From assembly GCF_014905095.1 (NCBI RefSeq), contig NZ_CP041165.1:124001-188000 (forward strand): 64,000 bases of DNA, written 5' to 3'. The position numbers and the translations under genes are program-made. This document shows positions 3,849 through 21,402 of this stretch, one piece after another. A model generated the notes under the pieces. It saw nothing but the letters and a program-made list of their open reading frames with translations. It was not told the origin of the DNA and searched no databases. Each line of letters begins with the position of its first letter. The stretch's first letter is position 1. Origin of the DNA: Sulfurimonas marina (lineage in GTDB: Bacteria; Campylobacterota; Campylobacteria; Campylobacterales; Sulfurimonadaceae).

Positions 3849-4862
3849 ATGATATTAGTCACCGGCGGAGCTGGATATATAGGTTCACATACCTGCGTAG
3901 AATTAAGTAATGCAGGACTTGATTTTGTAGTATTTGATAATCTTTGCAACTCTTCAAAAGAGAGTTTAACGAGAGTATCACAAATAATCGGTAAAGATGT
4001 GAATTTTATAGAGGGTGACATTAGAGATAAAGAGGCTTTACAAAAAGTATTTGATCTCTATAATATCGATTCCGTGATTCATTTTGCAGGACTTAAAGCT
4101 GTTGGAGAGTCTGTCGAAAAACCGTTAGAGTATTATGACAATAATATAATAGGGACTATAAGACTTTGTGAAGTGATGGAGCAAAACAATTGTAAAAAGA
4201 TAGTTTTTAGCTCTTCAGCAACAGTGTATGGAGATCCTCTTACTACACCGATTACAGAAGATTTTCCCCTTTCAGCCACAAACCCGTATGGCAAAACAAA
4301 ACTTTTTATTGAAGAGATACTTAGAGATCTATTTGGTTCAGACCACGCGTGGAAAATAGTACTGCTTCGTTATTTTAATCCTATAGGTGCACATAAATCA
4401 GGTTTAATCGGTGAAGATCCAAACGGAATACCAAACAATCTTATGCCTTACATTTCACAAACTGCCGTGGGCAAATTAAAGCAGTTAAGTGTATTTGGAG
4501 ATGATTATGATACACATGATGGTACGGGTGTGAGAGATTATATCCATGTTGTTGACTTGGCAGACGGACACGTAAAAGCGATTGAAAAAATTGATACATT
4601 AGATAATGTTTTGACGGTTAATTTGGGAACAGGAAAAGGGTACTCAGTTTTAGATATGGTTAAGGCATTTGAGAAGGCTTCTGGTAAAGAGATTCCATAT
4701 AAAATTACATCAAGACGCAAGGGTGATATAGCAAAATGTTTTGCCGATCCGAGTTATGCGAAGTCTGTTCTAGGATGGAAAGCAAAGCGTTCAATTGACG
4801 AAATGTGTGAAGACAGTTGGAGATGGCAGTCTAATAATCCTAACGGATATAAAAATAACTAG
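3849..4862 (+). CDS. galE: UDP-glucose/UDP-GlcNAc 4-epimerase
   Basis: A cytosolic 337-residue extended short-chain dehydrogenase that interconverts UDP-Glc/UDP-Gal and probably UDP-GlcNAc/UDP-GalNAc. The NAD motif TGGAGYIGS is at 5-13, the catalytic Ser in SSSATVYG is at about 123, and the YxxxK pair is Y147/K151. At the position matching E. coli GalE Tyr299 (IAKCFADPS here) the residue is Cys297. A small residue there is known, for example in human GALE, to let the enzyme accept N-acetylated sugars. The gene converges on the Pel operon with 2 bases between stops, so it is not in that transcript but could supply UDP-GalNAc for Pel. The UDP-GalNAc role is inferred from this one residue and the neighbours. 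Confidence 0.93.
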
Positions 4863-4880
4863 AGTTATTCACACTCTAGT
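4858..4880 (-). terminator. Hairpin terminator shared by galE and the Pel operon
   Basis: ACTAGAGT and ACTCTAGT form a perfect 8-bp stem with a 7-base loop. On the minus strand the stem is followed by TATTTTTATA. It overlaps the galE stop codon and the pelA stop region, so it probably ends transcription from both sides, more strongly for the Pel operon. Confidence 0.6.
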
Positions 4881-7588
4881 GTTATTGTTGCCTCTTTTAT
4901 ATTTTTATATTTAAGAGTAGTTATATCCCCTTCTTTTAAGAGTTTTTGGGCTTTTGGTACCGCACTTATTTTACATCCGCTACTTATATACATACTCAGA
5001 TCAAGATCTACGTATGAGCTGAAACTATAACTTTTTGTACTGCTTGTCTCATTATAATCTGTAAGCTTTCCATTACTCGAAACCATATAGATTTTATTAT
5101 TCTCCTCATTAGAGAGCTCTATAAGATGTTTTTCTCTTTGATCAAGACTTAAGTAAGTATGGTTCTCAAACTGTGTAACTCCTATAACACCTTCTGAATT
5201 ATTAAGATCTACATTTGCATCAAAATCTTCAAACCGTATGGTTTTTAAATCATTCATCCCGTAAATAAGCCAACTATTTCCATCTTTTGCCATAGAGACC
5301 TCATACATATCCATAACTTTCGGAATATATTCAGAGGTAAAGATAGGCATTGCATCTTGTTTGAGTGCCCAGTTAAACACATATTTTAAAGCCTCTAAAG
5401 ATGCACGTTTAGAACCTGAATAGAGATGATAATAGATATCTATCGGTTTTAAACGTCTTGGTGAATTTGTGAGTTCAAAAGTTTGTGTGACGCGCTTAAA
5501 CCCCCAAAACGGTCCAAGCCAGTTGTTTGTATAGACATTTTCATTTTGTGCCCCCGTATAGACCTGGTAGTAATCTGAACGTTTTAGTCCAAAAGGGGAG
5601 ATGCGAGTCAGCCAAGGATTGGTTTTGACAATAGTCGTATCGCCACCATTGATTGCCAAAATATTATTTTTATAGATATACTCTAAAGCATTTTTTCTTG
5701 GAGCACAGTCACCACTCCAAAAGATAATGTTTGCTTTTTTAGATTTGTTTTTCGGTGAGTATTTTTCATTGATAGTATCAAGAAAGGTTTTGAGCTCTTT
5801 TTCAAGTGAAAACTGATACTCAGTTACTTTTAGCCTGTACTCTTCACTTAGATTGTTATCAATGATTTTTTCCCAGAAAAACGGGTGTGTAAACGTATGG
5901 CTTGCCGCTTCAACATTTTCAAGTGCAAACATCTCTTTAGTTATTTTAATCATTTTTTCTGAGAGCTTTGGATAAAGACCGTTTGGATCTATCTCTGCTC
6001 CGATAACAGAAACTGAATGTGGAATCTTATATTTTTTAAGAATTTTATTGAGGATTACATCTCCTGAATACTCCCCGAAATCTCCCTCTACTTTATTCAT
6101 AATTCCATCACCGTCAATATGTGTAAAAAGAAGGCGTTTCCCATTTTCAGTGGTTGGATCGGGTACAGGAAGTTTTGGAAGTCTTAGTGCCTGCTCAAAA
6201 AACTTAAAAGGATTTGTTACCCACATATCTTCACTGTTAATAGCTGTAATAAAAGCTTCATTTTGAAGGTATCCACCCCATGAAGTGATCGCTGCAGGAG
6301 TTGAAGTTTTTCCATCTGTATATTGATAGGTAAGTAACTCTTTTGCATCTTTTACATGAATAAGCATAGGGTTTCTAGACATAGGTGGTTCTATCTCAAA
6401 GCCAACCATTTTATTTTGGAGAAGGATAGATTTTTTAGGCAGATTAGTCTGTTCAATAGTAATACCGAGTGATGCAAGTTCATCCTCTTTGGCATCAATT
6501 GCAAAAGTATTCACAAAAACTATAGGGATATTTCGTTTCTTTACTTCGTTTAGCCACTTTAAGAGTTTATCTCGATCGTTATAGTACTTCTCAAGCCAAA
6601 TAACTATACCCGCATAATGCTCTAGTTTATTTGGATCAGGCAGACCTTTATTGATATCGTAAAGTTTTTGAATATAGCCAAGATACTCAAAGATAAGACC
6701 ACCCTCAAAGTGTGCACCTTGAAGCATGCGATCGAGTCTGCTTTCATCTATAAGTGTCAGAATCTCTCTTTTAACAGCATTTTTAGAACTTTTCCCATAG
6801 ATATCCAGTTCTTTGTTTGCTACATAAGGGATAAACCCTTTTGCTTGAAGCTTTTTTACAAGCTTATCAGCATATTTCATATCTGAGAGGTAATCAACGG
6901 CAATAATATCGAGGTTATATTTTTTCACCTTTTCAAGATTTTTATCGAGCCATATGCGATCTGCTTCATCCACCTCTTTATAGGCTAGGTTTTTTCCTTT
7001 TAAACCTTGATAGTAAGATTCAAATAAAACTGCATCAACTGCATCGTGAACATCGTCAATAATCCCAAAACCACGGTTAATTATCAGTTTTACATCCGGA
7101 TATCTTTTGTGAAACTCCTGAATAAAACTAGCGAGAGAGTGTTGACTCTCTTGAATCTTTTCTGGTGTTTTAGAATAAAAATAGTACGAGTCTAAAGTAT
7201 CAAAAAAGAAGTTTTTAAACCCCTGTTTTAAAAGAGGATCAATTTGGTGTGTAAATATAAACTCTTGATACTCTTTATTGTTTATATCTAAGACATCACT
7301 ATTCCAAGCCTCATTTTTGGCCACAATCCATGAGCTATTGATATCATTGTGTACACTACTGTTAAGATCTACTTCGCCGATACTAATATAGGCATAAATA
7401 CTCTTTTTATAAAGAGAAAAGCCATGTGTAACAGTGTTTGTATGTTGGGGTTGAACGATGATATAGTCATGAACACCAATCATCGGATAAGAGAGCTCAT
7501 CACCGTAGTAAACTATCGCACTTTTATCTTGTAAAGAACCAAATAAAAGTGTACTAAAAATCCACACAAGAAGTAGGTATTTTTTCAA
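4865..7588 (-). CDS. pelA: PelA-like bifunctional hydrolase/deacetylase
   Basis: A 907-residue periplasmic protein with a signal peptide (about 1-18). In the family PelA partly deacetylates Pel polysaccharide and can also cut it. The N-terminal TIM-barrel hydrolase (GH166/GH114-like, about 20-280) keeps G71-E72, the acidic pair in DTLD (D130, D133) and E190 in the LFESYY strand. A flavodoxin-like linker follows (about 320-450). The polysaccharide deacetylase region has THIDGDG (489-495), SHTFTHPFF (563-571) with the metal-binding His pair, and FWSGDC. A beta-rich tail ends the protein. It is the last gene of the operon, 1 base after pelB. The family usually has about 950 residues. A paralogue lies four genes upstream. 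Confidence 0.85.
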   Translation of the reverse strand: MKKYLLLVWIFSTLLFGSLQDKSAIVYYGDELSYPMIGVHDYIIVQPQHTNTVTHGFSLYKKSIYAYISIGEVDLNSSVHNDINSSWIVAKNEAWNSDVLDINNKEYQEFIFTHQIDPLLKQGFKNFFFDTLDSYYFYSKTPEKIQESQHSLASFIQEFHKRYPDVKLIINRGFGIIDDVHDAVDAVLFESYYQGLKGKNLAYKEVDEADRIWLDKNLEKVKKYNLDIIAVDYLSDMKYADKLVKKLQAKGFIPYVANKELDIYGKSSKNAVKREILTLIDESRLDRMLQGAHFEGGLIFEYLGYIQKLYDINKGLPDPNKLEHYAGIVIWLEKYYNDRDKLLKWLNEVKKRNIPIVFVNTFAIDAKEDELASLGITIEQTNLPKKSILLQNKMVGFEIEPPMSRNPMLIHVKDAKELLTYQYTDGKTSTPAAITSWGGYLQNEAFITAINSEDMWVTNPFKFFEQALRLPKLPVPDPTTENGKRLLFTHIDGDGIMNKVEGDFGEYSGDVILNKILKKYKIPHSVSVIGAEIDPNGLYPKLSEKMIKITKEMFALENVEAASHTFTHPFFWEKIIDNNLSEEYRLKVTEYQFSLEKELKTFLDTINEKYSPKNKSKKANIIFWSGDCAPRKNALEYIYKNNILAINGGDTTIVKTNPWLTRISPFGLKRSDYYQVYTGAQNENVYTNNWLGPFWGFKRVTQTFELTNSPRRLKPIDIYYHLYSGSKRASLEALKYVFNWALKQDAMPIFTSEYIPKVMDMYEVSMAKDGNSWLIYGMNDLKTIRFEDFDANVDLNNSEGVIGVTQFENHTYLSLDQREKHLIELSNEENNKIYMVSSNGKLTDYNETSSTKSYSFSSYVDLDLSMYISSGCKISAVPKAQKLLKEGDITTLKYKNIKEATITLECE

Positions 7589-7589
7589 C

Positions 7590-10433
7590 CTAGAACTCCT
7601 TTGAGAGTGTGTACATAAATTGATAGTCTATATAGAATTGAAGTACTTTCCCACCAATACCGTTAACTGAATCGGTATAAGAAGCACCGATACTCATATG
7701 ATCTTGTTCAAATACTTTTCCGCCGATACCGCCATTGACACCAAATGTATAATCACCGATATCAGAGCTATAATAAGGGGAAAATTCAATGTAAGGTCTC
7801 CAAACTCTAGTATAGAGGTTTTTATTAGCATAACCGTACGAGATATTAATCCCTATATTGTAAAACTGGCTTGGTAAAACTTGATACTGATCTAGTTGGA
7901 GTTGATCGATAATCCCTTTAGAACCAGAGCGTTCACTATACATCCCGTTATCGTAAAACACGCCAAAGCGCAGATCAGGATAACCGTTTCTTAACTGTTG
8001 TGAAATATTTGCACTAAAATATCTGCCGTTTCCAAGATGTACATTGTCTTGGGAGTAAAAGTCACTAAGTTCATATCTAAGTTCAACAGAGGTTGAATTG
8101 AGAACTTGATATATTATTGACGGAGCAACAAGATCTTTTTTGCCGCCGAGATAGAGCTGTGTACTCTCCTCAGCCTTTTTGTTTTTTGCTAGTTCCAAAC
8201 CAGCAGTAAAATCAGTACTTAACTGGTATGTTGCATTTAAAAGAACTGAGAGATAGTTTCTCATATTATGGTTATAGAGAAGATCCAGCTCAACAGAAGC
8301 TCTCTCAGTTACCTTTTTAATGCCGAGTGTAGCATCATAAGTATTTTTTGGAACATCTACTAAAATATCACTATCAGATGATTTGTTATTGTAGTATCCA
8401 AAACCGGTCAATATATACCAGCTATCACCAATATAAGAGCTGTTTTTAAGTGTCACATAGTGCTGTTCAAGTGGATCTCTAATATATCTCGAGAGTCTTA
8501 AATCAAGTGTATCGCTTCTAAGTTTACTAAGCTCTATCTGTTCTATATAGTTGTTTTTATTATAGTGATTCTGATTAAAAAAGTTATAGTTTACTGTTTG
8601 TGCCAATGCAATTTGCCCATCCTCTTTTGCCTGGAAAGAAGCATCTGAAGCAGAAAGTTCGTAGAGATATTGATCAAGCAGATTTTCTATATTTGTATGG
8701 TGTTGTAAAACAATTGCGTTTGAGAACTGCATCCATAGTTCCGGAGTCGGTGTTTGCGTATAAATCTCATGGCTTTTTTCAAGTGCCTCTTTTTGCAATG
8801 CCCAAGAGTACGCTAACTCATTATAGTTTTTTTGTTTGAGATAAGGCTTTGCTTTTTTGAAGTTTTTCTCAAATTTATCAGCACGCATAACATACATTGC
8901 CGCACTAAGATAGTTTGTAAGATGATCATTGTCTTTTTTGAGACTAGGAGTTTTTTCTCTTTGTTCTCTTAAGAGCTTCAAGATCTCCCTCATTCTCAAC
9001 TTGAAAGCCTCATCTCTATTTTGTATCTGATAGATATATGCTTGTAAAAACTTATAATCAACGCTTTGTGTAATCATGTTTTCTTCAAAATCAAGGAGAC
9101 TCATATAATAAGAGGCTCTGTCAATATTATTGATATAGAAATATGCTGAAGCTAAAGTGAAGTAAAGTGATGGAGAAATATTGTTTTTCTCTTCAATCTC
9201 CAGAAGGATTAGTTTTGTATTTTTAACATCATGCAGATCCATAAAATGCCATAAAAGAGCCGTTTTAATTTCTATATCATACGGAGATAATAAAAGTGCT
9301 CTTTGTAAAGCCATCTCTTCGAGATCATACTTCTCATAGTGGTTATAAACTTTTGACTTTATGATCCAGTACATAGCCTCTTGTGTAAGAGGTGAATTTT
9401 CTTCATCTATTGTTGTTAAGAGTTTGTTTAGATCATCAAATTTGTTTTTGTTGATAGCATCGTTTGCATAACCGAAAAACATATATGGGAGTTTATATTT
9501 CATATAGCCTTCTTTTACTGCTTGTGCAGCAATTTGGGGATCGATATCCTGATAAACTACAGCAACTCTTTCATAGTCAGACAATCTCCCTTTATCTATA
9601 TCAATCAACATCTTAGATGCTTGTGCGGCAGGAAGGTTTTTTTGCAGGTACCATCCAAGATCGCTCTTTAGTTCAAAATATTGTACTTCATGAGTATCAT
9701 TATTATCTTGAATAATATTAGGGTTATTCACATATGTAAGAGAGTCATAGGCAGTGTTGATATCTCTTAAAATATAGTAGTATTTTGCTATAAGGGCACT
9801 GTTTTGTTTAGAGTAAGGTTTTTCTTTACTGAGAATATCTACATATTTTTTTGCCAGCTCTAGATCACCTAATTCTAAAGAGAGTTCAAGTGCCTTTGTC
9901 AACAATAAAGTTTTTTTCGTTTTTTTATACTCTTTATCTAAAATAGTTATAACTTTTTCCGGAAAACCGGTTTTTTTATAGATAGTGATCAGCAGATCAA
10001 CATTCTTTTCACTAGGGTTCTTTCTTACTCTGTTTCTTACCAGCGGTTCTATACTCTCATATTGGTAAGTTGATTTTCCATACTCGATGAGTTGTTTCTC
10101 AATTTTAGGATCGTATTTGAGCTGATACATCTTTTTTAGATGTTTCATAGAACGTGCAGAACGGCCTGTCCATTGTGATATAGTAGCCATTTTTTCATTC
10201 CAATAATAAGAATTTGGATGTTGATTATAACCGATTTGTGCAACTTGAAATGCACTCTCTACATCACCTTTATATAAAAACACTTGCACCATTAGACGAA
10301 GCTCTTCCTCTTCGGAAGCGGGTGTTTGTAACTGCTTTTTCTTTGCAAGCGGTGTTTGCTGGGTAACTGGAAGGTTTGCTTGCGCAACTACGGATATAAA
10401 AGTAAAAAGTAATACTAGAACTATTTTTATCAT
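7590..10433 (-). CDS. pelB: PelB C-terminal part: TPR scaffold plus outer-membrane barrel
   Basis: A 947-residue exported protein with its own signal peptide (about 1-19). Residues about 45-620 are helical TPR-like repeats. Residues about 650-947 alternate as amphipathic beta strands and end in an aromatic residue (SKEF), as expected for an outer-membrane barrel. In Pseudomonas one PelB of about 1,190 residues has an inner-membrane anchor, TPRs and a barrel that exports Pel. Here the anchor part is the separate upstream gene, and the two overlap by 4 bases (ATGA). The own signal peptide argues for a true two-gene arrangement and not a sequencing frameshift. Its TPR part should bind PelA in the periplasm. 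Confidence 0.82.
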   Translation of the reverse strand: MIKIVLVLLFTFISVVAQANLPVTQQTPLAKKKQLQTPASEEEELRLMVQVFLYKGDVESAFQVAQIGYNQHPNSYYWNEKMATISQWTGRSARSMKHLKKMYQLKYDPKIEKQLIEYGKSTYQYESIEPLVRNRVRKNPSEKNVDLLITIYKKTGFPEKVITILDKEYKKTKKTLLLTKALELSLELGDLELAKKYVDILSKEKPYSKQNSALIAKYYYILRDINTAYDSLTYVNNPNIIQDNNDTHEVQYFELKSDLGWYLQKNLPAAQASKMLIDIDKGRLSDYERVAVVYQDIDPQIAAQAVKEGYMKYKLPYMFFGYANDAINKNKFDDLNKLLTTIDEENSPLTQEAMYWIIKSKVYNHYEKYDLEEMALQRALLLSPYDIEIKTALLWHFMDLHDVKNTKLILLEIEEKNNISPSLYFTLASAYFYINNIDRASYYMSLLDFEENMITQSVDYKFLQAYIYQIQNRDEAFKLRMREILKLLREQREKTPSLKKDNDHLTNYLSAAMYVMRADKFEKNFKKAKPYLKQKNYNELAYSWALQKEALEKSHEIYTQTPTPELWMQFSNAIVLQHHTNIENLLDQYLYELSASDASFQAKEDGQIALAQTVNYNFFNQNHYNKNNYIEQIELSKLRSDTLDLRLSRYIRDPLEQHYVTLKNSSYIGDSWYILTGFGYYNNKSSDSDILVDVPKNTYDATLGIKKVTERASVELDLLYNHNMRNYLSVLLNATYQLSTDFTAGLELAKNKKAEESTQLYLGGKKDLVAPSIIYQVLNSTSVELRYELSDFYSQDNVHLGNGRYFSANISQQLRNGYPDLRFGVFYDNGMYSERSGSKGIIDQLQLDQYQVLPSQFYNIGINISYGYANKNLYTRVWRPYIEFSPYYSSDIGDYTFGVNGGIGGKVFEQDHMSIGASYTDSVNGIGGKVLQFYIDYQFMYTLSKEF

Positions 10434-11485
10434 AACTTATTCTCGTATCTTAGGATTTTTTTCGATAATTGTGATGCATATTCAAGTTCCCCTGCAGCTA
10501 GATAGATACGTAAGAAAAACTTTCTCATTTTCACATTGCCTATGTATTTCGATTCATATTGATGTACAAGGTTGGCTGCCTCTTTTAAAAGATTGCCCGA
10601 TTGTAGCGCTTTAATAGATTTCACTAGATACTGCTCCTGCAGATCTTCATTTTTTGAAACATAATAGAGCTTTAGATACGTATCTGATGCCGCCTCATAT
10701 TTTTTAATCATAAGGTAAAATTGTGCCAGTTTCTCCTGTATCTCAATTGAGTCTTTAGCATATCTCTGTAAAATAGTTTCGGCACTTTTATAGTCTTTAT
10801 AGCGTATAAAAATATCATACTTATCCATTGCCCATTTTGTAGAATTACTTGTGTCATATTTCTCTAAAGAGTTGATAAACTCCATTGAATCAGCTCTTTT
10901 GTAAAGATTTAAAGAAAGGTAATACCCCTCTCTTAATAGGTCTACGTTTGTCGGATCATCTTTTAACATTATCTGTAAGAAATAATATGCAGCTTGAGGA
11001 TTATGTACAAATACAGCTTCATTATGCCATCTTTCTGCATTGTCATTATAAAGTTTCTCTGTATATATTGTTGTAAAAAGTTTTTTGAGATCATTATGCA
11101 GAGCTTTTTGTTGTTTTTCATCATTAATAGAAAAATATTTTATTTTTTTTGTTTGGTAAGCTAATACAATCGCTTTATTTCGAATATATATGTTTTTACT
11201 TTGAAGTAAGCTTTTAGAAAGCTCGAGAGAGTGCTCAATCTCTCCTGCTTGTACATATTTTTCTAATAAAATTAATTTTAACGAATCATCGTTAGGATTG
11301 TGTTCTAAAAGGTCTTTTAGATAGATCATACTGAGATCGTAATTAGACTGATCAGCAGATATTTGATCTTTTAAGATCCCTTTTGGATAGAGTGCAAAAA
11401 GGATAATAAGAAAGACTATAACAGTGAACAGAAGTTCTTTGTATGTGACAACATAAACAGCTTCTTCATTATTGACATCGTACAT
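10430..11485 (-). CDS. PelB N-terminal part: membrane-anchored TPR protein
   Basis: A 351-residue protein with one membrane segment (about 12-30) and a periplasmic TPR-like helical region to the end. It has no barrel. Size, topology and position directly before the barrel gene fit the N-terminal inner-membrane anchor and first TPRs of a canonical PelB, here encoded as its own polypeptide. It overlaps the second pelA paralogue upstream by 17 bases and the barrel gene downstream by 4 bases. In the Pel machine it would tether the export scaffold to the inner-membrane complex. Assignment rests mainly on context, because TPR sequences diverge quickly. Confidence 0.7.
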   Translation of the reverse strand: MYDVNNEEAVYVVTYKELLFTVIVFLIILFALYPKGILKDQISADQSNYDLSMIYLKDLLEHNPNDDSLKLILLEKYVQAGEIEHSLELSKSLLQSKNIYIRNKAIVLAYQTKKIKYFSINDEKQQKALHNDLKKLFTTIYTEKLYNDNAERWHNEAVFVHNPQAAYYFLQIMLKDDPTNVDLLREGYYLSLNLYKRADSMEFINSLEKYDTSNSTKWAMDKYDIFIRYKDYKSAETILQRYAKDSIEIQEKLAQFYLMIKKYEAASDTYLKLYYVSKNEDLQEQYLVKSIKALQSGNLLKEAANLVHQYESKYIGNVKMRKFFLRIYLAAGELEYASQLSKKILRYENKL

Positions 11486-14030
11486 CTATAGTTGCCTTTT
11501 TGTTAGATTTGTATTTAAGAGTCATCTCTTTGCTATTCAGTTTTTGAATTGAACTCTTTGGAATAGCGTTTACTAGACAGTTCTCAGGAATATGCAGTTT
11601 GACCTCAAGGGGTACATTTGCACTGAATTTGTATCGTTTCGAGTTTTGATTGTTAATATACTCTGTAACTTCCCCGTTGGAATTAATAAGATACGCAGAA
11701 TTATCCATTGTTTGACCATTGAGTTTAAAACTATGTTTTGTATGAGGGTCTAATGCGATATAGGTATGCCCCTCAAAACGGTTTACACCTAGGATTGTCT
11801 CTGAGTCATGAAGTGCTACACTGGCATCTTTCTTCTCTACTCTGAGTGTTTTAAGATCCCTCATCCCATCATAGAGCCAAACACCATCCTCATAAGCAAC
11901 AGAAACTGTCCAAAAATCCATAGCTTTTGGAATATATTCAGAGGTATATATAGGCATGATATCTTTTTGTTTTAATACCCAGTCAAAAACATAACGGACA
12001 GCATTTAACGACGCTTTTTTTGAAGCTGAATAGAAGTGATAATAGACATTGATAGGTTTTAATCTTTTTGGAGAGTTTGTTAACTCAAATGTTTGTACAA
12101 CTTTTTTAAATCCCCAGTACGGTCCCATCCAGTCTTTTGTAAAAACATTTTCATTTTCTGCACCTGTATAGATTTGATAGTAGCCATCTCTCTCAAGACC
12201 AAGAGGGGCTACTCTAGTCAACCATGGATTTGCATTGTTAATAGTGGTATCTCCACCGTTAATGTTTAAAATATGGTGTTTTGCAAGATATGTCAGAGCA
12301 TCAGTCCTAGGATTACAATCTCCACTCCAAAATACTAATTTTGCTTTTTTATCTGAATTTTTACCAAGAAGTTTATCCTGAATAAAATCAAGCATTCCCA
12401 ATGTTTCATACGCTGTAGAAAAGGTATATCCCGGTGGTTGAAGTCTATATTTTTCATCGAGTTGATCATCTTTTATTTTTCCCCAGAAAAACGGGTGAGT
12501 AAAAGTGTGTGTTGCGGGTTCGACATTATCTAGAGCATAGATCTTTCTACTTATTTGTAACAGCCTTTTTGATTCTTTTGGATAGATACCATCGGGCATA
12601 ATCTCTGCACCGATAAGAGATACAGAATGTGGAAATTTATATTTTGTCAGTATCTCTTTATAGATAATATCACCGGATATAAACTCAGGATCGAACTCAA
12701 CACCGTTTAAAATACCGTCACCGTCCATATGTGTAAAAAAGAGTCTGCTTCCATTCTCTGTTGTAGTATCTGGAACAGGTAAATCTTTTAAGCGTAGCGC
12801 CTCTTTAAAAAATATAAACGGGTTAATACTCCAGAGGTTTTCCCCGTCAAGTTCTATAAAAAATGAATCACCGAGTGCATAACCGCCCCATGGAGTAATC
12901 GCTGCAGGTGTTGAGGTTAATCCGTAATTGTCCTTATATGTTAAAAGTGCTTTAGAAGCTGCTGGAGGATTGATATAAAATCTATTTTTATTGATTGGTA
13001 CTTTTATCTCATAATCCATCATCTTATCTCTGTGGACTATAGTTTTAGTAGCATCGGCTTTTCCATCTATTGCACTAATACCTAGCTGTTGTAAAAATGT
13101 ATTTGATGAGTCAAAACCAAAATCGTATGCAAATACGACAGGGATATTTTGTGACTGAATCTCTTTTATCCAAGTTACCAATTTTGCAGAGTCTTTGTAG
13201 GCTATACTCAACCAAATAACTACACCTGCATATTGATTCATATGTTCAGGATCTGGAAGTGAATTGTGGATATCGTAGAGTTTCTGAATATATCCGTTAT
13301 ACTCTAAAGGTAAAGCTCCATAACGGCTTGCAGAGAGCTCTTTGCGATCTTCAATACTCTCATCTACAAGTGTCAAAATTTCTCTTTTTATCGCATTTTT
13401 CGATGATTTTCCGTAACTCTCCATACTTGGCGTTGTAATATATGGGATAAATCCTAAGTTTTTGAGCTTTTCTATATTGTTGGACTCAAGAGTCTCAACA
13501 TCGATAATATCATCACTGAGGTTTTTATAGAACTTGATAGAACTTTGAAGTTTTGGATCTTCAGATGCGTTATATACAAGTAGTGTATCGATATATCGAG
13601 AAACAGATGCAAGGAGCTCTAGATCATCTAAATGGATTACTACATGTGCATCTTGAAATGTTTTTGTAGATCTGAATTTATTTAAAAACAGTGTTAAATT
13701 TTTCTTGCTTATAGGTTTTTGAACGTCAAAAAAGAAGTTTTTATATCCACTTTTTGAGAGTTTCATCAGACCAGCTAGCAACTTTTGGGGAGTGGTACTA
13801 CTGTCAATATTCACTTTTGCATAGATTTTATTGTTATACACCTCAAAACCATGCGTATATACATTGGTTTTTGCAGGATCTACGATGATATAATCATGGA
13901 TTCCTACCATAGGATAGGAGATCTCTTTCCCAAGATACACTATGGCACTTTTGTCATTTATCGAACCATAGGCAGTAGCTATAAAAAGGAAAAACGTAAG
14001 GATAATTTTACTGTAACATAAATGTTTCAT
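11469..14030 (-). CDS. PelA paralogue, deacetylase retained, hydrolase motifs lost
   Basis: An 853-residue exported paralogue of the 907-residue PelA, similar along its whole length. The deacetylase motifs are intact: THMDGDG (433-439), THTFTHPFF (507-515) and FWSGDC. The N-terminal hydrolase domain is about 30 residues shorter and its acidic residues have changed: GE becomes DS (76-77), DTLD becomes DVQK (102-105), and the strand Glu becomes Tyr153. It should deacetylate or bind Pel but not cut it. The gene lies between pelG (23-base overlap) and the split pelB (17-base overlap). It may be the synthesis-side deacetylase, with the last gene acting in release; that division is inference. Confidence 0.8.
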   Translation of the reverse strand: MKHLCYSKIILTFFLFIATAYGSINDKSAIVYLGKEISYPMVGIHDYIIVDPAKTNVYTHGFEVYNNKIYAKVNIDSSTTPQKLLAGLMKLSKSGYKNFFFDVQKPISKKNLTLFLNKFRSTKTFQDAHVVIHLDDLELLASVSRYIDTLLVYNASEDPKLQSSIKFYKNLSDDIIDVETLESNNIEKLKNLGFIPYITTPSMESYGKSSKNAIKREILTLVDESIEDRKELSASRYGALPLEYNGYIQKLYDIHNSLPDPEHMNQYAGVVIWLSIAYKDSAKLVTWIKEIQSQNIPVVFAYDFGFDSSNTFLQQLGISAIDGKADATKTIVHRDKMMDYEIKVPINKNRFYINPPAASKALLTYKDNYGLTSTPAAITPWGGYALGDSFFIELDGENLWSINPFIFFKEALRLKDLPVPDTTTENGSRLFFTHMDGDGILNGVEFDPEFISGDIIYKEILTKYKFPHSVSLIGAEIMPDGIYPKESKRLLQISRKIYALDNVEPATHTFTHPFFWGKIKDDQLDEKYRLQPPGYTFSTAYETLGMLDFIQDKLLGKNSDKKAKLVFWSGDCNPRTDALTYLAKHHILNINGGDTTINNANPWLTRVAPLGLERDGYYQIYTGAENENVFTKDWMGPYWGFKKVVQTFELTNSPKRLKPINVYYHFYSASKKASLNAVRYVFDWVLKQKDIMPIYTSEYIPKAMDFWTVSVAYEDGVWLYDGMRDLKTLRVEKKDASVALHDSETILGVNRFEGHTYIALDPHTKHSFKLNGQTMDNSAYLINSNGEVTEYINNQNSKRYKFSANVPLEVKLHIPENCLVNAIPKSSIQKLNSKEMTLKYKSNKKATIDVRCQ

Positions 14031-15381
14031 AATTCAACCTATTCATCTCTTCACGTATAACAAGTACACCGAGAGTAAAGACAATTAACAGAGATATCGT
14101 ATATCCGTATCCAAACATAGTCGTTCCCATATTGATCGATAAGTATGTCAAAAGCCCGTTTAGAACAAAGAACGAGATAGAGAGCCACATTGCAGCTTTT
14201 TTACGATCAAGATAATACAATATTGCCAAAATAGACATAAATGCCAACTGTAACATAGCTCCAATTGTTAAAATATAAAAGAGTCCAAGGTAAAGGGTAG
14301 AGATATTTAATGCTGCAAAGAGTTTATCTGCTGTTAAGAAGAGAATAATATCAACAATACCTTGAACCATGATAATCTCATGGATTGCATGTCTTACGAT
14401 TGAAGTCATATCGTTTTTATATTTTTTGATAAGTCCTAAAGTCCCGCCGCTTCTAACGGCATCATAGTAGAGATCGTACTTTTCAGCAAAATCGGCTTCA
14501 AGTCTAAAGAAAAAGATAGCCATACCGGGCAAAATAGATAAGTATGCCAAGAAGATAGGCATATCATATACAACTGAGGCATGTAGCTTACCGATAATAG
14601 CATGTCCGGTTGCAGGGTGGTACCAAAAGATAAATTTGTCTATCCACGCACCAAGGTTATAACTAAGACCTGCAATACCTAGTGACCAGTAAAAGTTATG
14701 ATCTAAAAAGAAGTTTAGCTTCATAAATATTGTAGAGGGATAACTCTTAATAATAAGGCTCATCAGTATTGTAAAAAGGATAGCATTCCCGGTAAAAAAG
14801 ATATATACAAGCATCTCTATAGAGCTTCCGTATGCATATGAAACCGCAACAATAAAAGTGTATGAAAGAAGGTATGCCCAAACAACTTGTGAATAGTATT
14901 TTAAACTAGCTGCTAATATACTAGAGATCCATACCCCACAAAGTACTAAGAAAGTAAGTACGGTGCCGACAATAAATGAAGGTGGCATATCGCTAAATAC
15001 CCACATATACAGAGGGACTATAAAGATAAGACCGAGTCCCCAAGCTAAAAAGATAGCACCAAAGTATGAGGGGAGGATCTCATCCTCTTTATTTCTAAAA
15101 ATTAGATCGGCAATGTACCTTGTAAAAGGAAGCTGTAAAATCCCCGTAATAATCAAACTTGATGCCAAAGCGATTGCATAGGTGATAACGACCTGGAATC
15201 TAAAGGCATCTTTCACTTCACCAAAGTGTGAAAGGTTGATAAAACCTACTAGGATAATTGCTATGATCGATATAACCCACGGTCCAGAACTGAGTATCGC
15301 TGAGTACCCATATACTTTACCGAGTGAAAGAAGTCTATCTTCACGCAGTATTTTTCTAAGTTCAAATCCAATGCCCGCCAT
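14008..15381 (-). CDS. pelG: Pel polysaccharide flippase PelG
   Basis: An inner-membrane protein of 457 residues with about 12 membrane segments. It opens with MAGIGFELRKIL, a hallmark start of PelG. PelG belongs to the MOP/Wzx-like superfamily and with PelD, PelE and PelF forms the inner-membrane complex that makes Pel and moves it across the membrane. Length matches the family. It overlaps pelF by 1 base and the downstream pelA paralogue by 23 bases, so translation is probably coupled. Confidence 0.92.
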   Translation of the reverse strand: MAGIGFELRKILREDRLLSLGKVYGYSAILSSGPWVISIIAIILVGFINLSHFGEVKDAFRFQVVITYAIALASSLIITGILQLPFTRYIADLIFRNKEDEILPSYFGAIFLAWGLGLIFIVPLYMWVFSDMPPSFIVGTVLTFLVLCGVWISSILAASLKYYSQVVWAYLLSYTFIVAVSYAYGSSIEMLVYIFFTGNAILFTILMSLIIKSYPSTIFMKLNFFLDHNFYWSLGIAGLSYNLGAWIDKFIFWYHPATGHAIIGKLHASVVYDMPIFLAYLSILPGMAIFFFRLEADFAEKYDLYYDAVRSGGTLGLIKKYKNDMTSIVRHAIHEIIMVQGIVDIILFLTADKLFAALNISTLYLGLFYILTIGAMLQLAFMSILAILYYLDRKKAAMWLSISFFVLNGLLTYLSINMGTTMFGYGYTISLLIVFTLGVLVIREEMNRLNYETFMLQ

Positions 15382-17099
15382 TATAGACCCCTTTTAGGTA
15401 GATTTGTCAAGAATTTATTGATTGAGAATCTTTTTAACATCACTTTAGGATATGGAGCCGATTTTGGCATATAGTAAGGGAAAACTATCTCTGCCAATTC
15501 ATCCCAGGTAAGATCTTTTGCTTCGTTGTATAGAGCTGCATACTGTTGTAAAAAAGATGCTTGAGAGTAGTATTTTTTTACACGTTTTAAACCAGTCTCT
15601 TGAGCTCTTTTCCATAAGCCGTTTTCGAAATTCAAAAACTTGATATATTGAGATGCAAGCTCATCAGGATTTGCAATACCGGTAATTGCACCAGCAAATC
15701 CTAAGGCTTTATCCTCGTCATCTATACCGCCTTCTATTAAATCACGACAACTTCCAACATCGGTTGCAACACAAGGTACACCTGCAGCAAAACCTTCTAA
15801 GATAACCAACGGCATCCCCTCACTGATTGAAGAGAGTGTTTGTAGTGCCGATTTCGGTAAAATCTCTTTAACATTACTGTGTCCAAAAAATTTGATCTTA
15901 TCTCTATGTGAAACTATTTCATCTAAAGACATTTCACTTTTATTATTTTGAAACATTTGTTTTTTGTGTTTTAAACCAAGAGATATGGCCATCTGTTGAC
16001 ACTCATCAAAATACTCTGCATCCTCTTCAACCGGTCCTACGATCCATCCTTCAATATTTGGAATAGTCATAGAGGCTATCTTGATAGCACGAATAAAAGT
16101 TTTAATATCTTTAATAGGTACAACCCTACCGATAAGTGTAATAATAGGTCTTGGAGTTTCAAGACGCTCTTTCATTGTCTCTGCTAGACCTTCAACATCA
16201 ACACCGTTGGGGATAACCAGTGTTTTATTTTCATTTGCACCGTAACTTACTTGAATCTTCTGTGCACCCGAAAAAAGTGAGAGGGTATAGTTGGAACGAT
16301 CGTAACAAAACATTCCAATTTTATCGAAGAAGTTTACCCACATACGCTTAATATAGTTATACTCTTCAGGTTGTTGTAATAAACTAGGTTTTTTAAATTC
16401 AATCCAGTCAGCCGAGAACATATCAATTTTTCTTTCTCTTGTATAGATCCCGTGTTCAGTTAAAAGAAAGGGTCTGTTTGTATGGTAAGAGGAGAGGGCT
16501 CCTAAAAATCCTGCATATCCAGTTGAAGGTGAATGAAATATTTTTGCTTTAGGCAGTTTATCGACAATATTAGCAAGTATCCATATAGGCTTATGGATAT
16601 TTCTTAATGTCCAGAAATAGTCAATAAACGGAACATCCGGGCAGTTTTTTGTATATACTTCATCTATAAACTGCCAAGCTTTTTTTGAGAACAAAAAGTC
16701 TTCAAATGTGACATCTTGTGTATAGAAAGAGACATCTTGCAACATTTTCGGAATCTCAAATTTATCCCCTTTGAGTCCTTTATAGAGTTCTCGAATCGCT
16801 TCAAACCCTTTTTCATCGCCCTCTATTTTTTTTGCAGGGGGTGTATCTTCATTATCAAAAAGGTAATGTACTTCGAGATGTTTTAAGTTAGGAGGGAATT
16901 CATAACTGATTTTCATCTTTTTCCCGTCGATAGTATCTTGAGCACCTATAAAGCAAACACCAAATGTAAATTGCGGCAACCCTTTCATAAGCTGTAATAA
17001 CCAGCTTGAAACTCCACCTTTTATGTAAGGGTAAGTTCCCTCGGAAAAAAGCATGATATCAACATTGTCACTTTTTGGAAATTGAATATTATGTGGCAT
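15381..17099 (-). CDS. pelF: Pel glycosyltransferase PelF (GT4)
   Basis: A cytosolic GT4 glycosyltransferase that in this family polymerises Pel from UDP-GalNAc. The 572 residues include the PelF N-terminal signature EGTYPYIKGGVSSW (20-33), the conserved TEHGIYTRER block (214-223), the nucleotide loop GRVVPIKD (324-331), and the retaining-enzyme E-x7-E motif with E427 and E435 (SEGMPLVILE). The length is slightly above the usual 500 or so, with an insertion near 375-400. One base separates it from pelE upstream, and it overlaps pelG by 1 base. Confidence 0.93.
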   Translation of the reverse strand: MPHNIQFPKSDNVDIMLFSEGTYPYIKGGVSSWLLQLMKGLPQFTFGVCFIGAQDTIDGKKMKISYEFPPNLKHLEVHYLFDNEDTPPAKKIEGDEKGFEAIRELYKGLKGDKFEIPKMLQDVSFYTQDVTFEDFLFSKKAWQFIDEVYTKNCPDVPFIDYFWTLRNIHKPIWILANIVDKLPKAKIFHSPSTGYAGFLGALSSYHTNRPFLLTEHGIYTRERKIDMFSADWIEFKKPSLLQQPEEYNYIKRMWVNFFDKIGMFCYDRSNYTLSLFSGAQKIQVSYGANENKTLVIPNGVDVEGLAETMKERLETPRPIITLIGRVVPIKDIKTFIRAIKIASMTIPNIEGWIVGPVEEDAEYFDECQQMAISLGLKHKKQMFQNNKSEMSLDEIVSHRDKIKFFGHSNVKEILPKSALQTLSSISEGMPLVILEGFAAGVPCVATDVGSCRDLIEGGIDDEDKALGFAGAITGIANPDELASQYIKFLNFENGLWKRAQETGLKRVKKYYSQASFLQQYAALYNEAKDLTWDELAEIVFPYYMPKSAPYPKVMLKRFSINKFLTNLPKRGL

Positions 17100-17100
17100 T

Positions 17101-18213
17101 TTACGCTCTCTTCCATTGTTCTAAAATTGGGTGAATTGTAGAGTTAATACTCAAACTTTCTAATTTTGATAAAATTGAAGCAACTATATTGTATTTACCC
17201 ATTAAGAAATAGATCTCTGCCATATATGGCAATACAAAACTTGCATCATTCTCTAGAAGCTCTTGTGCAACCGTAAATTCGGTAAGGGCTTGTTCATATG
17301 CTCCGTTTTTCATATATACACGACCAAGTAGGAGGTGTAGTTTTGATAATGTATTGATAATTTCTAGTTGTTCTTGCGAGTTCTCCTCTACTGACTCATC
17401 CAGTAAGATAAGGTAGTGACGTCTAGATATCAAGGCATAAATCTCTACTTGATCTAAAAACTCTTCATTAAGGCTTTCATGTGAAAGCTCCGTATAAAGA
17501 AGTTCCCAATATAAAAAAGCCAGCTCTTTTGCTGCTTCTGCTGCATCTTGAAGATTATGGGAACTATCGGCAGCTTTGAGTTTTTCAAGCTCTTTATTTA
17601 TATTTTTTGCCAGACGTTTTTCAGCTTTATCGATAATGGCATATCCAAACATTCTGATCTCATCATCAGTACTTGAGAGTGTTTGCTTGATAATCCTTAA
17701 GTTTGCCGGAGAGATATTTGTAGAAAGAACGTTCAGTGCTCTTAATTTTTTTGATTTTGGTGCATATTTACTATGAATTAGATCGTTGAGAGAACCTTCT
17801 CCAAAAACTCTTTCAACCTCTAAAAACGATATACCAAACTCATCAAGGTTCAATATATTTGTATTTGAAATCTTTTCAGCATATTCCATCTGTACCATCA
17901 ATCTCGCTAAAATTATTGAAGTAACATAGCCAAGAAGAGGCATAGAAAAGATAAATATAAAGAAATAGAGCAAACTTGATCTGAAGTTGTTTTTATGCAA
18001 CGAGAATCGAAATAATCTTTTATAAAAGTTACTCTCATCCACAATAGCTTGCAGTCTATGGAGATCTTGTTTATTCACTTTATAAGAACTTGAAATAAAC
18101 CTTTTTTGTACATATTTTGCAAGAATAAAAGCCAATACTAAACTAATAAGTGTGTGTACAGCTAATATTAAAAAAAAGTATAAATCAAATTGGGTGAATA
18201 ATTTATTTTCCAT
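17101..18213 (-). CDS. pelE: Inner-membrane TPR protein PelE
   Basis: A 370-residue protein with two N-terminal membrane segments (about 10-31 and 75-97) and a cytosolic helical region with TPR-like repeats in the C-terminal half (for example LGRVYMKNGAYEQALTEF). PelE proteins of this layout scaffold the PelD-PelE-PelF-PelG synthase complex. It overlaps pelD by 11 bases and precedes pelF by 1 base. Sequence conservation of PelE is low, so the call depends on topology and position between pelD and pelF. Confidence 0.82.
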   Translation of the reverse strand: MENKLFTQFDLYFFLILAVHTLISLVLAFILAKYVQKRFISSSYKVNKQDLHRLQAIVDESNFYKRLFRFSLHKNNFRSSLLYFFIFIFSMPLLGYVTSIILARLMVQMEYAEKISNTNILNLDEFGISFLEVERVFGEGSLNDLIHSKYAPKSKKLRALNVLSTNISPANLRIIKQTLSSTDDEIRMFGYAIIDKAEKRLAKNINKELEKLKAADSSHNLQDAAEAAKELAFLYWELLYTELSHESLNEEFLDQVEIYALISRRHYLILLDESVEENSQEQLEIINTLSKLHLLLGRVYMKNGAYEQALTEFTVAQELLENDASFVLPYMAEIYFLMGKYNIVASILSKLESLSINSTIHPILEQWKRA

Positions 18214-19564
18214 AGTCTTCTCGATAATATTTTGAAAGAAGTGGTAGTTGAGTCATATCAAAACTCATATACTCAAAATCTTTATCTTTTTCATCCTCTA
18301 AAGTAGATTGCAGTCTTTTTAACAAACCTTGTGCCGCTGCTTTATCATGTAGAGGTAGAAGGAGAGTGATGTAATAATAATCTTCATTATGCACTAGTGT
18401 AATCATATCAAGAGCACGGAGCATACGTTCAACTTTTTGGTACACTCTTGCAGTTTGCAGCTCATTATCTATTCGTAAAACCAAGATGACAGAGTTCACT
18501 TTAAAGTTATTGTTGAGATCTTTGAGTCTTGCTATCTCAAATTTAAAATCTTTATCCTCTAAAAGTTCAAATCCCTCAAGAGATTTTGAAAGAGCAGCTT
18601 TTCTGTTTTCAATAGAAAAATATTCATGTAAAATCGTGATTGATGTAAGGTTCTCTCTATTAAAAAACATAAAAGGCATTTTTTCTATTACAAGGACAGA
18701 AACTACTTTTCCGTTTATAACCGCCGGAATAGCACCTATATATTTATTTTCAAGCTCTTCATTAAATATACTTGGTTCACCCGATTCATCACTTACATAG
18801 ACAGGTGATTTTCTCGCAATTGCTTTATCAACAAGATAGTTTTGTAACAGTTTTTCAACTTCTAAAGTCTCTTTGATATTGATAGTAATAAGCTCTACCG
18901 TATCTTTATTGAAGCTCATATCAGTTGCATTGTTTTTTAGATAGAGAATCAAACCGCTTTGCATACTAAACGACTTTTCAATCAGTTTTAAAAAGTTGTT
19001 GTTATATTCATAAGCTTTGTTTTCAATAGTATCATCAAGTAATATCATCTCGTTTGTATGGACAATGTGATTAATTGAATTACGGATACTCATAGGCTTA
19101 ATTACATAGTTTTTCTCTAACTGATCGTGCGAAATTTTTAGCGTGTAAAAAGCACGGGAAAGTTCAGAAAGTTTATCTGACTTATAGCTTGATTCAACTT
19201 CTGCTTCTTTAATCCGTGAGTTCCAAAAATAGTGAAATTGACTAAAGATTAAAGTCATCAGTAATGCTATCAAGAAGTCCACATATTGAAAAGAGGGGTA
19301 AAATACCCAGATAGCAAGTGAGATAATACTCACAGCAAAAACACCATTTTCAAAACCATGAAAAAGGGTAATAATAGCTAATAATATTACAAGGTATGGT
19401 ACCTTATAACTTAGTAAACATGGATCTCCAGAGTTGATTAAATAACCAATAGCTACATAAAGAGTAACAAGTATAAGTGTCTCAATATAAGCGTATTTGT
19501 GTATATACTCTCTTAAAAGATCTTGTGTTGATTTTTCCTGTACTCTTTGTGTATGTTTTGCCAT
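18203..19564 (-). CDS. pelD: c-di-GMP receptor PelD
   Basis: An inner-membrane protein of 453 residues: about four membrane segments (about 27-112), a GAF domain (about 160-320) and a degenerate GGDEF domain (about 335-445). The inhibitory-site motif RALD (R383, D386) lies five residues before the place of the GGDEF signature, which here reads HNEDY, so it cannot make c-di-GMP but could bind it. R417 lies 34 residues after R383, close to the spacing of the third ligand-binding Arg in Pseudomonas PelD. R161 may match the fourth. Binding of c-di-GMP switches on Pel synthesis in the family. It overlaps pelC by 1 base and pelE by 11 bases. Confidence 0.9.
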   Translation of the reverse strand: MAKHTQRVQEKSTQDLLREYIHKYAYIETLILVTLYVAIGYLINSGDPCLLSYKVPYLVILLAIITLFHGFENGVFAVSIISLAIWVFYPSFQYVDFLIALLMTLIFSQFHYFWNSRIKEAEVESSYKSDKLSELSRAFYTLKISHDQLEKNYVIKPMSIRNSINHIVHTNEMILLDDTIENKAYEYNNNFLKLIEKSFSMQSGLILYLKNNATDMSFNKDTVELITINIKETLEVEKLLQNYLVDKAIARKSPVYVSDESGEPSIFNEELENKYIGAIPAVINGKVVSVLVIEKMPFMFFNRENLTSITILHEYFSIENRKAALSKSLEGFELLEDKDFKFEIARLKDLNNNFKVNSVILVLRIDNELQTARVYQKVERMLRALDMITLVHNEDYYYITLLLPLHDKAAAQGLLKRLQSTLEDEKDKDFEYMSFDMTQLPLLSKYYREDYGK

Positions 19565-20079
19565 TATCTTTCAACCATCTCCATTAGTAAGTCTTGAGCA
19601 GTTGTTCCTATAGAACCATTACCCCAGTCACTGTCTGAACCAGTAGCACTCCAAACAAGTTTTTTATTTTTTGTTTTATATAAACTTACTTGAATACTTA
19701 CAGCCGGTTCCCCATCAATACCTGTTTTATATCTCCACTCACTAACACCACCGTAAATAAAGTATTTAGCATCATCATCTTTCGCTTTTTTAGCAGCTTT
19801 TTTTAATGAGTATGTTTTATCATTTACATATGAAACAATTTTGTATCCCTTTGCTTTTAAGATCCCTTCTAAAATATTAGAAGCTCTCATACCTGCTCTT
19901 GGAGTATCCGTATAGTTTTCTAAACGGAATATAGCCACAGTTACACTGTTTTTTTGTTGATGAGTTTCATTTACATCTTCATATACCGCCGGCAGTTTTT
20001 TTGGTGTCGTGACGATCACATTACTTGTACAACCTATAAACAACATTGCAAATGCTGCTAATAATACATTTCTTAACAT
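19564..20079 (-). CDS. pelC: Outer-membrane lipoprotein PelC
   Basis: A 171-residue lipoprotein with signal peptide and lipobox (FIGC, Cys about 17), followed by an alpha/beta domain with CsgG-like features (VAIFRLENYTD, GIDGEPAVSIQVSLYKTK). Pseudomonas PelC has about the same length and forms a ring at the inner face of the outer membrane below the PelB barrel. It overlaps pelD by 1 base and follows the porin gene after 39 bases, the widest gap in the operon, where an extra promoter could sit. Context makes the call firm despite low sequence conservation. Confidence 0.82.
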   Translation of the reverse strand: MLRNVLLAAFAMLFIGCTSNVIVTTPKKLPAVYEDVNETHQQKNSVTVAIFRLENYTDTPRAGMRASNILEGILKAKGYKIVSYVNDKTYSLKKAAKKAKDDDAKYFIYGGVSEWRYKTGIDGEPAVSIQVSLYKTKNKKLVWSATGSDSDWGNGSIGTTAQDLLMEMVER

Positions 20080-20118: not shown

Positions 20119-21402
20119 TTAAAAAGCAAATTGTATTCTCATTTGGTAGATATTTATCAACCCGTCATAATCATCAGTATCTTTTGGTAATGCCATAATA
20201 TATTCAGTCATCACCTTAGTTTCATCATTGATGTACCAGTTAACTCCAAAACCGTAGTTTGTTTGTTCCCCACCATGTTCATCCTTGTCATTGAGATTAA
20301 TATAAGAATATCTGAGTGCTAACTCTACAGCACCATCCTGTCTTGGTTTGATTTTTGAGAATTTTGATTCTTTAAAATCAAACCGTTTCCCTTTGCCTAG
20401 TAAAAAATAACTCCCCTCCATAAAGTAACTGTAAAAACTATAATCATCTTTATCTGCAGAGATATCAGATGTTGTATATCCTGCTTGTAAAGAGTATTTA
20501 TGATTAATAAATAATAGATCGAAGTTTTTGTTTAAGAGATCGTTGACATCTCTAATTCGTACAGAGACATATTTATCATCTAATATACTTGATTCTGAGT
20601 TTTGTCTATAGCGCAAGTCTTCATTTTTATAATCTTGCTGCAGGGCTCCAAAACCAAGATGGAGTAGCTCTCTTTTGGAGGCTTTATAAGTATATGTAGC
20701 CCTTAGTGAAGCTCCCGGTTTGTTTATCTCATTCTCTTTTCTTTCATCTATAGAGTTTGTAAACCCACAAACAAATAAACTAAACAGATGTCGATCAAGT
20801 TTACTGTTTATAAGTAACTCTACACCTAGCTTTCTAGGGATTGAAAAAGCATCATCTCCCAGTGGTCTCTCCATAAAAGAGAGGTTTTTAGAAGTTGAAT
20901 ATCTGTATAGAGAGAAAGGAACTTTCAGGTTTCCGGCTTTGATTCTGTAAGCACCGTTTATTGCTCGAAGTTTATTTTTATATCCAATATAAAAATCTTT
21001 GTAATGATCTTCATCTTCGATAAGGCTATACTCCAACTCATAGAAAAGTTTTTTATCGAAAAAACTTCCTGAGTGACTTATTCTTGCTCTTCTGAAGTCG
21101 TGATCAAAAAACGGTTTCGGTTCATCATATGAGATCGCTTCAGCCTGGTCGATGTAACCGATGTCATAACTTATCTGTGCTCCGAAACTATATCTATAGT
21201 CATAAGGCCCTATAGGTTTTTTGTTGTTAGAAAGATTTGCAATATACTGTTGATATTTATACTCTTGTGAGCGTTTCTTTACATATTTTACTTTTTTCTT
21301 CTTTTTCTCTTTTTTAGTTGTTGTATCAAGATCGAGAGTTGTATTTGTATCATTGTTTGCAAAAAGGGAGAAACTGATAAGTAAGAGTATTAGGTATCTC
21401 AT
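20119..21402 (-). CDS. OprO/OprP-like porin
   Basis: A 427-residue outer-membrane barrel protein with a signal peptide (about 1-15), a Lys-rich segment with a KKEKKKKK run (31-38), and beta strands from about residue 67 to the terminal Phe (RIQFAF). Motifs such as FFDHDFRRARISHSGSFFDK and a long last barrel region match the phosphate-selective porin O/P family. It overlaps the DUF5706 gene by 4 bases and lies just upstream of pelC. Porins are not part of known Pel machines, so it may pass an ion or small product linked to Pel, or merely share the transcript. The substrate is unknown. Confidence 0.78.
   Translation of the reverse strand: MRYLILLLISFSLFANNDTNTTLDLDTTTKKEKKKKKVKYVKKRSQEYKYQQYIANLSNNKKPIGPYDYRYSFGAQISYDIGYIDQAEAISYDEPKPFFDHDFRRARISHSGSFFDKKLFYELEYSLIEDEDHYKDFYIGYKNKLRAINGAYRIKAGNLKVPFSLYRYSTSKNLSFMERPLGDDAFSIPRKLGVELLINSKLDRHLFSLFVCGFTNSIDERKENEINKPGASLRATYTYKASKRELLHLGFGALQQDYKNEDLRYRQNSESSILDDKYVSVRIRDVNDLLNKNFDLLFINHKYSLQAGYTTSDISADKDDYSFYSYFMEGSYFLLGKGKRFDFKESKFSKIKPRQDGAVELALRYSYINLNDKDEHGGEQTNYGFGVNWYINDETKVMTEYIMALPKDTDDYDGLINIYQMRIQFAF

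Follow-up and report, generated by a model that had tools for sequence, protein, structure and literature searches.

Probable loss of the hydrolase site from a duplicated, deacetylase-intact PelA in a Sulfurimonas pel operon

The pel operon in the window (the whole stretch of DNA that was analysed, 64,000 nucleotides of Sulfurimonas marina) contains two pelA genes, and in the product of one of them, PelA2, the hydrolase has very probably been lost while the deacetylase has been retained. In the Pseudomonas systems studied both PelA activities are found in one protein. We favour, at a probability of about three in four, a duplication followed by division of labour in which PelA2 would be a dedicated deacetylase and PelA1, the second protein, would supply hydrolysis; activities, docking and the selective reason are here what we infer. 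The original prediction had proposed such a duplication, with a bifunctional enzyme at the operon end. Sister clades, synteny, intact single copies, a second duplication and the genome designated G358 support the former at the level of sequence, and PelA1 does lie after pelB and appears to have both of its sites intact.

The two predicted open reading frames, of 853 and 907 amino acids, are both present, and their products are 46% identical over the whole length (BLASTP). The genes are as follows:

3849..4862, (+) strand: galE-type epimerase adjoining the operon end (domain search)
4865..7588, (-) strand: pelA1, 907-amino acid bifunctional PelA, 3' of pelB
7590..10433, (-) strand: pelB, 947 amino acids, TPR plus C-terminal beta-barrel (PF24604, 1.2e-38)
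10430..11485, (-) strand: 351-amino acid protein that has TPRs and, at its N-terminus, a membrane helix; interpreted as a split-off N-terminal part of PelB
11469..14030, (-) strand: pelA2, 853-amino acid PelA paralogue, hydrolase-dead and deacetylase-intact by its residues
14008..15381, (-) strand: pelG (PF16933, 3.2e-127), with a 23-bp overlap onto the start of pelA2
15381..17099, (-) strand: pelF glycosyltransferase (DUF3492 and glycosyltransferase domains)
17101..18213, (-) strand: pelE-like membrane/TPR protein (position and domain search)
18203..19564, (-) strand: pelD (PelD_GGDEF; PF16963, 7.7e-13)
19564..20079, (-) strand: pelC-like outer-membrane lipoprotein (by its position and a lipoprotein-like N-terminus; DUF4823 matched weakly)

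pelA2 had earlier been placed beside pelB, but it sits between pelG and the separate gene for the membrane-anchored TPR protein. The latter is read as a PelB fragment; related genomes with a longer single pelB lack it. Split-pelB pel operons, with pelB fission and gain of the locus in aquatic thermophiles, are treated in the main text of PMC7112194, which contains no description of a PelA paralogue with a dead hydrolase; here the TPR gene adjoins a shorter pelB. The galE-type epimerase at the operon end is a possible source of UDP-GalNAc.

The domains of the two proteins are located as follows:

13413..13967, (-) strand: PelA2 residues 22-206, remnant of a GH166-type barrel (alignment and AlphaFold2 strands; no Pfam GH114 match)
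12786..13412, (-) strand: PelA2 residues 207-415, mixed alpha/beta domain, in P. aeruginosa the predicted PelB-docking domain (PMC12022489)
11913..12785, (-) strand: PelA2 residues 416-706, CE21 deacetylase domain with H434, D436, D438, H508, H512, E627 and H665
11472..11912, (-) strand: PelA2 residues 707-853, C-terminal beta-rich domain
6803..7540, (-) strand: PelA1 residues 17-262, hydrolase domain with D130 and E190 intact and a Pfam GH114 match
5306..6175, (-) strand: PelA1 residues 472-761, CE21 deacetylase domain with its catalytic set intact

Hydrolysis needs D149 and E207 of the Pt enzyme, equivalent to D160 and E218 of the Pa enzyme, as established by mutation (PMC12022489). Our alignment agrees with the earlier one in giving PelA1 G71-E72, D130-TLD and E190 where PelA2 has D76-S77, D102-VQK and Y153. 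The claim that the hydrolase residues had gone from PelA2 is correct for the second carboxylate, the glutamate (Pt E207/Pa E218), which is replaced by Tyr153, but the essential aspartate survives as the first D of DVQK (Asp102), leaving PelA2 with one of the pair of carboxylates essential to a GH166 hydrolase. Nor is there a single deletion of about 30 residues: the hydrolase domain has 187 amino acids in PelA2 versus 250 in PelA1, and the missing residues, about 63, are spread over several blocks, which follow the GE strand, DTLD and E190. Strands 72-74, 88-92, 97-100, 194-197 and 202-205 of PelA1 are absent from PelA2, and with the loops of the catalytic face the latter has lost the substrate groove of a GH166 hydrolase. 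Pfam GH114 matches PelA1 (2.5e-16) and not PelA2; it matches 39 of 44 proteins in a mixed set (39 non-PelA2 and 5 PelA2 proteins) and none of 15 PelA2 orthologues, a pattern which argues that the loss of the hydrolase is not due to chance.

The catalytic glutamate is missing from 16 of the 17 main-clade PelA2 sequences that cover its position; the orthologue of G397 has an E aligned there, in a frameshifted assembly and with the remaining site gone. The hydrolase-invariant residues W107, W115, D152 and R189 are kept in none of the 17, and of the positions conserved at 95% or more among intact hydrolases most have been lost. That PelA2 might still hydrolyse some substrate through a rearranged site is suggested by Asp102 and by the D found at this first-carboxylate position in 12 of 17 PelA2 sequences. 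The others, however, have V, K, T, E or N there, and the substrate loops are deleted. An alternative acidic pair in the pocket, which the original prediction had named as grounds for its own rejection, was looked for; the orthologues have no conserved acidic residue between about 77 and 206, and the invariant columns of residues 71-206 in 15 of them are A71, I176 and Y206, none of them acidic. We regard hydrolysis by a rearranged site as very improbable.

Structure prediction, which had been put forward as a check, yielded an AlphaFold2 model of PelA2 (53 sequences) with a mean pLDDT of 92 and block values mostly of 80-98. A full (beta/alpha)8 barrel is predicted, its eight strands (29-32, 47-50, 69-75, 98-103, 130-133, 149-153, 174-179 and 195-198) alternating with helices, and a signal-like helix is seen at the N-terminus. 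The model matches 9CGY along the chain (E 2.6e-62, TM 0.79/0.82); 5TCB, the structure of the isolated hydrolase, was not among its matches at E 0.001, and the sequence match of PelA2 to 9CGY (residues 188-821, 1.7e-90) begins only at the end of the hydrolase domain. By this model PelA2 would be a pseudo-hydrolase that still folds, joined to an intact deacetylase. The remnant is near-constant in length (184-193 amino acids) and has a dN/dS of 0.08-0.32 in three orthologue pairs, dS being high in two of them; this purifying selection argues that PelA2 is not a dying gene.

A barrel core predicted with high confidence, near-constant in length and under purifying selection would also suit a module for polymer binding or partner docking, either a pseudo-glycosidase lectin or part of a PelA1-PelA2-PelB assembly, with the deacetylase active but secondary. 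We think this unlikely: the loops of the polymer-holding groove are absent, almost no residue of the remnant is conserved, conservation being concentrated in the deacetylase, and the hydrolase domain lies outside the predicted PelB interface in P. aeruginosa (PMC12022489).

Mutation has identified D517, D519, H589 and H593 of Pt, the catalytic base and the metal ligands, as the residues for deacetylation (PMC12022489). The CE21 set comprising these plus H515, E712 and H750 is complete (7/7) in PelA2 and is also found in the orthologues covering the region. The motifs THxDGDG, HTFTHPFF and FWSGDC, said earlier to be kept in both proteins, are indeed common to PelA1 and PelA2. Deacetylase positions that are invariant in single-copy PelA are kept in 771 of 779 cases in hydrolase-dead copies and 711 of 720 in PelA1, and the dN/dS of the PelA2 deacetylase domain is 0.05-0.09 (three orthologue pairs, dS high in two). 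The shortened, fast-evolving hydrolase domain could point to a pseudogene in decay or to an artefact of assembly; both are ruled out by this selection, by synteny, and by the 849-866 codons open in all 15 full-length orthologues, which occupy one operon slot.

PelA1 has the hydrolase and deacetylase sites of a full-length bifunctional PelA. Its sequence matches 9CGY, the complete PelA of Pseudomonas thermotolerans, at 1.7e-134 and also matches 5TCB, the hydrolase by itself; its model superimposes on the latter with a TM of 0.88.

We searched at four levels: 200 genomes for the order, 228 for the family as a whole, 44 from the family to which G128 belongs, and a sample of 397 from the Campylobacterota. 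Eighteen genomes carry a PelA2 orthologue, 17 belonging to the same family as the window and the other being G128, a Sulfurospirillum-labelled MAG; most are MAGs or SAGs, and the named contigs are Sulfurimonas- and Helicobacteraceae-labelled. The gene order on contigs spanning the operon is pelC-D-E-F-G-A2-TPR-B-A1, and in single-PelA relatives pelC-D-E-F-G-A-TPR-B. Single-copy PelA proteins with sequence through the hydrolase site have kept both active sites. An MK-x-L-C start overlapping the end of pelG is common to PelA2 and most single copies in the group, which indicates that PelA2 occupies the ancestral slot. The slot PelA of G218 (L169:8157-9668(+)), which ends at a contig edge inside the deacetylase and was left outside the intact and dead classes, has Asp at the catalytic Glu position and several other changed hydrolase positions, with the loops kept; by these residues it may represent an early step in losing the hydrolase.

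In a tree built from the sequence C-terminal to the hydrolase domain (96 rows of 639 columns) PelA2 (17 rows, SH-aLRT 97) is sister to the terminal PelA1 group (18 rows, SH-aLRT 98), inside the Sulfurimonas-type PelA, and the species order is mirrored between the two clades. Two related Sulfurimonas-type genomes, G381 (L167:8938-10491(-)) and G293 (L168:2754-4328(-)), neither with a pelG match, have an orphan PelA ending at the deacetylase start (THID--RIMN). Its hydrolase residues are intact and its hydrolase dN/dS is about 0.06; it is possibly a stand-alone Pel-cutting enzyme.

The two operon contigs of G358 join via an exact 127-bp overlap. In this genome the hydrolase Glu is absent from PelA2, in which HIDGDG, ATHTFTH and FWSGDC are all present; PelA1 (L113:5327-8056(+) = L070) keeps the hydrolase D and E and carries D519N, H589N and H593D, so that all three metal ligands are replaced, as well as FWSGNC in place of FWSGDC. 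Hydrolysis and deacetylation appear here to be on separate proteins, a complete reciprocal split. In the comparison of G358 with G228 dS is saturated, so the pair gives no dN/dS.

Elsewhere the split is one-sided, the PelA1 deacetylase being intact in nearly all genomes. This retention of both sites would also be expected if the second copy were a matter of gene dosage, mainly adding deacetylase, with the hydrolase lost as harmful or unneeded and PelA1 not specialised; loss of the hydrolase in both duplications, once per operon position, fits as well. Against dosage, the G358 PelA1 without deacetylase ligands is a real specialisation and long co-inheritance at 46% identity suggests more than dosage, and we judge it rather unlikely.

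The second duplication was found in two MAGs, with hydrolase-dead copies after pelB (L081 in G311 and L072 in G374). These fall into a strongly supported group with L082 and L084, the intact copies that occupy the slot in these two MAGs, apart from the PelA2 clade, and forcing all hydrolase-dead copies together costs 194 lnL (AU p about 1e-124). A single origin of hydrolase-dead PelA is ruled out by the AU test, which together with the tree implies at least two losses of the hydrolase, at opposite operon positions. The loop regions trimmed are the same as those trimmed in PelA2. This case rests on binning, on the single pelG in G374 and on the tree: G311 is 8% contaminated, the dead copy of G374 is also frameshifted, and an exact contig-end overlap between the two pel contigs was not found in either MAG. 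G011 (L074:8880-14309(+)) has two adjacent PelA genes, of about 896 and 899 amino acids, with all sites intact, which would represent a third, separate duplication without loss.

Under the favoured reading of duplication and division of labour, pelA would have been duplicated once, in an ancestor shared by a group of Sulfurimonas. Of the two copies, the one in the original slot, in the pelG-pelB interval, would have lost its glycosidase site and the surrounding loops, retaining the barrel as a scaffold and a fully conserved CE21 domain, and the copy 3' of pelB would have remained bifunctional. PelA2 may then be a periplasmic dedicated deacetylase acting on nascent Pel as it passes from PelG on to PelB; it would use its mixed alpha/beta and deacetylase domains, whose surfaces in P. 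aeruginosa PelA are predicted to dock on PelB. PelA1 would provide hydrolysis and, in most genomes, extra deacetylation; their shared operon suggests a common polymer as the substrate of both copies. With the functions split, deacetylation could increase without a rise in chain cutting, and this would matter because P. aeruginosa PelA in vitro hydrolyses faster than it deacetylates and favours acetylated polymer (PMC12022489). Somewhat short of an even chance, in our estimation, is the generalization that a duplicated pelA repeatedly resolves a conflict between two activities, the hydrolase going first in either copy, so that a pseudo-glycosidase deacetylase is left, and a full reciprocal split, as in G358, being able to follow.

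PelA2 resembles Pseudomonas PelA (GH166 plus CE21; 9CGY, 5TCB) in its four-domain architecture, signal-like N-terminus, CE21 catalytic set, predicted overall fold and location in a pel operon; it differs in having neither the hydrolase Glu nor the groove loops, and in that its operon contains another PelA, a complete one. A survey of full-length PelA homologues, epsilonproteobacteria included, reported both active sites to be conserved (PMC12022489), and exceptions to this picture now exist. As in Bacillus cereus, with PelA(DA) and PelA(H) (PMC7112168, PMC13254593), separate proteins would deacetylate and hydrolyse, and the deacetylase gene lies within the synthesis operon. B. cereus PelA(DA), however, has no hydrolase domain, the mark of the Gram-positive protein, and possesses a transmembrane domain, whereas PelA2 retains a barrel remnant that is predicted to fold. 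The Sulfurimonas-type split also differs in having arisen via gene duplication, in a Gram-negative with PelB, and in that the second protein is usually bifunctional. A literature search, with subscription papers, preprints and supplements outside its scope, found nothing on PelA or the pel operon in Sulfurimonas or on such a paralogue. The split is known in kind from Gram-positive pel loci (PMC7112168, PMC13254593); what is new is that Gram-negatives have arrived at it through duplication, the hydrolase decaying in place while the fold is retained, that this happened more than once, and that one case is reciprocal.

If the generalization on repeated conflict resolution is true, Pel deacetylation and cutting would be separable steps that compete within the bifunctional enzyme. 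The two appear to have been parted within a single operon on at least two occasions, in one genome by a full reciprocal split. The paralogues are candidate ready-made single-activity PelA proteins with which the steps of Pel making could be studied apart, and the reason for the coupling of the two activities of PelA becomes testable.

Upstream of pelC (20119-24561(-) of the window) are genes for three proteins: one of the Porin_O_P kind, one combining a PycTM-type membrane domain with DUF3616, and a CotH kinase protein. The same trio precedes pelC in several relatives, and cotH also occurs in Gram-positive pel loci (PMC7112168).
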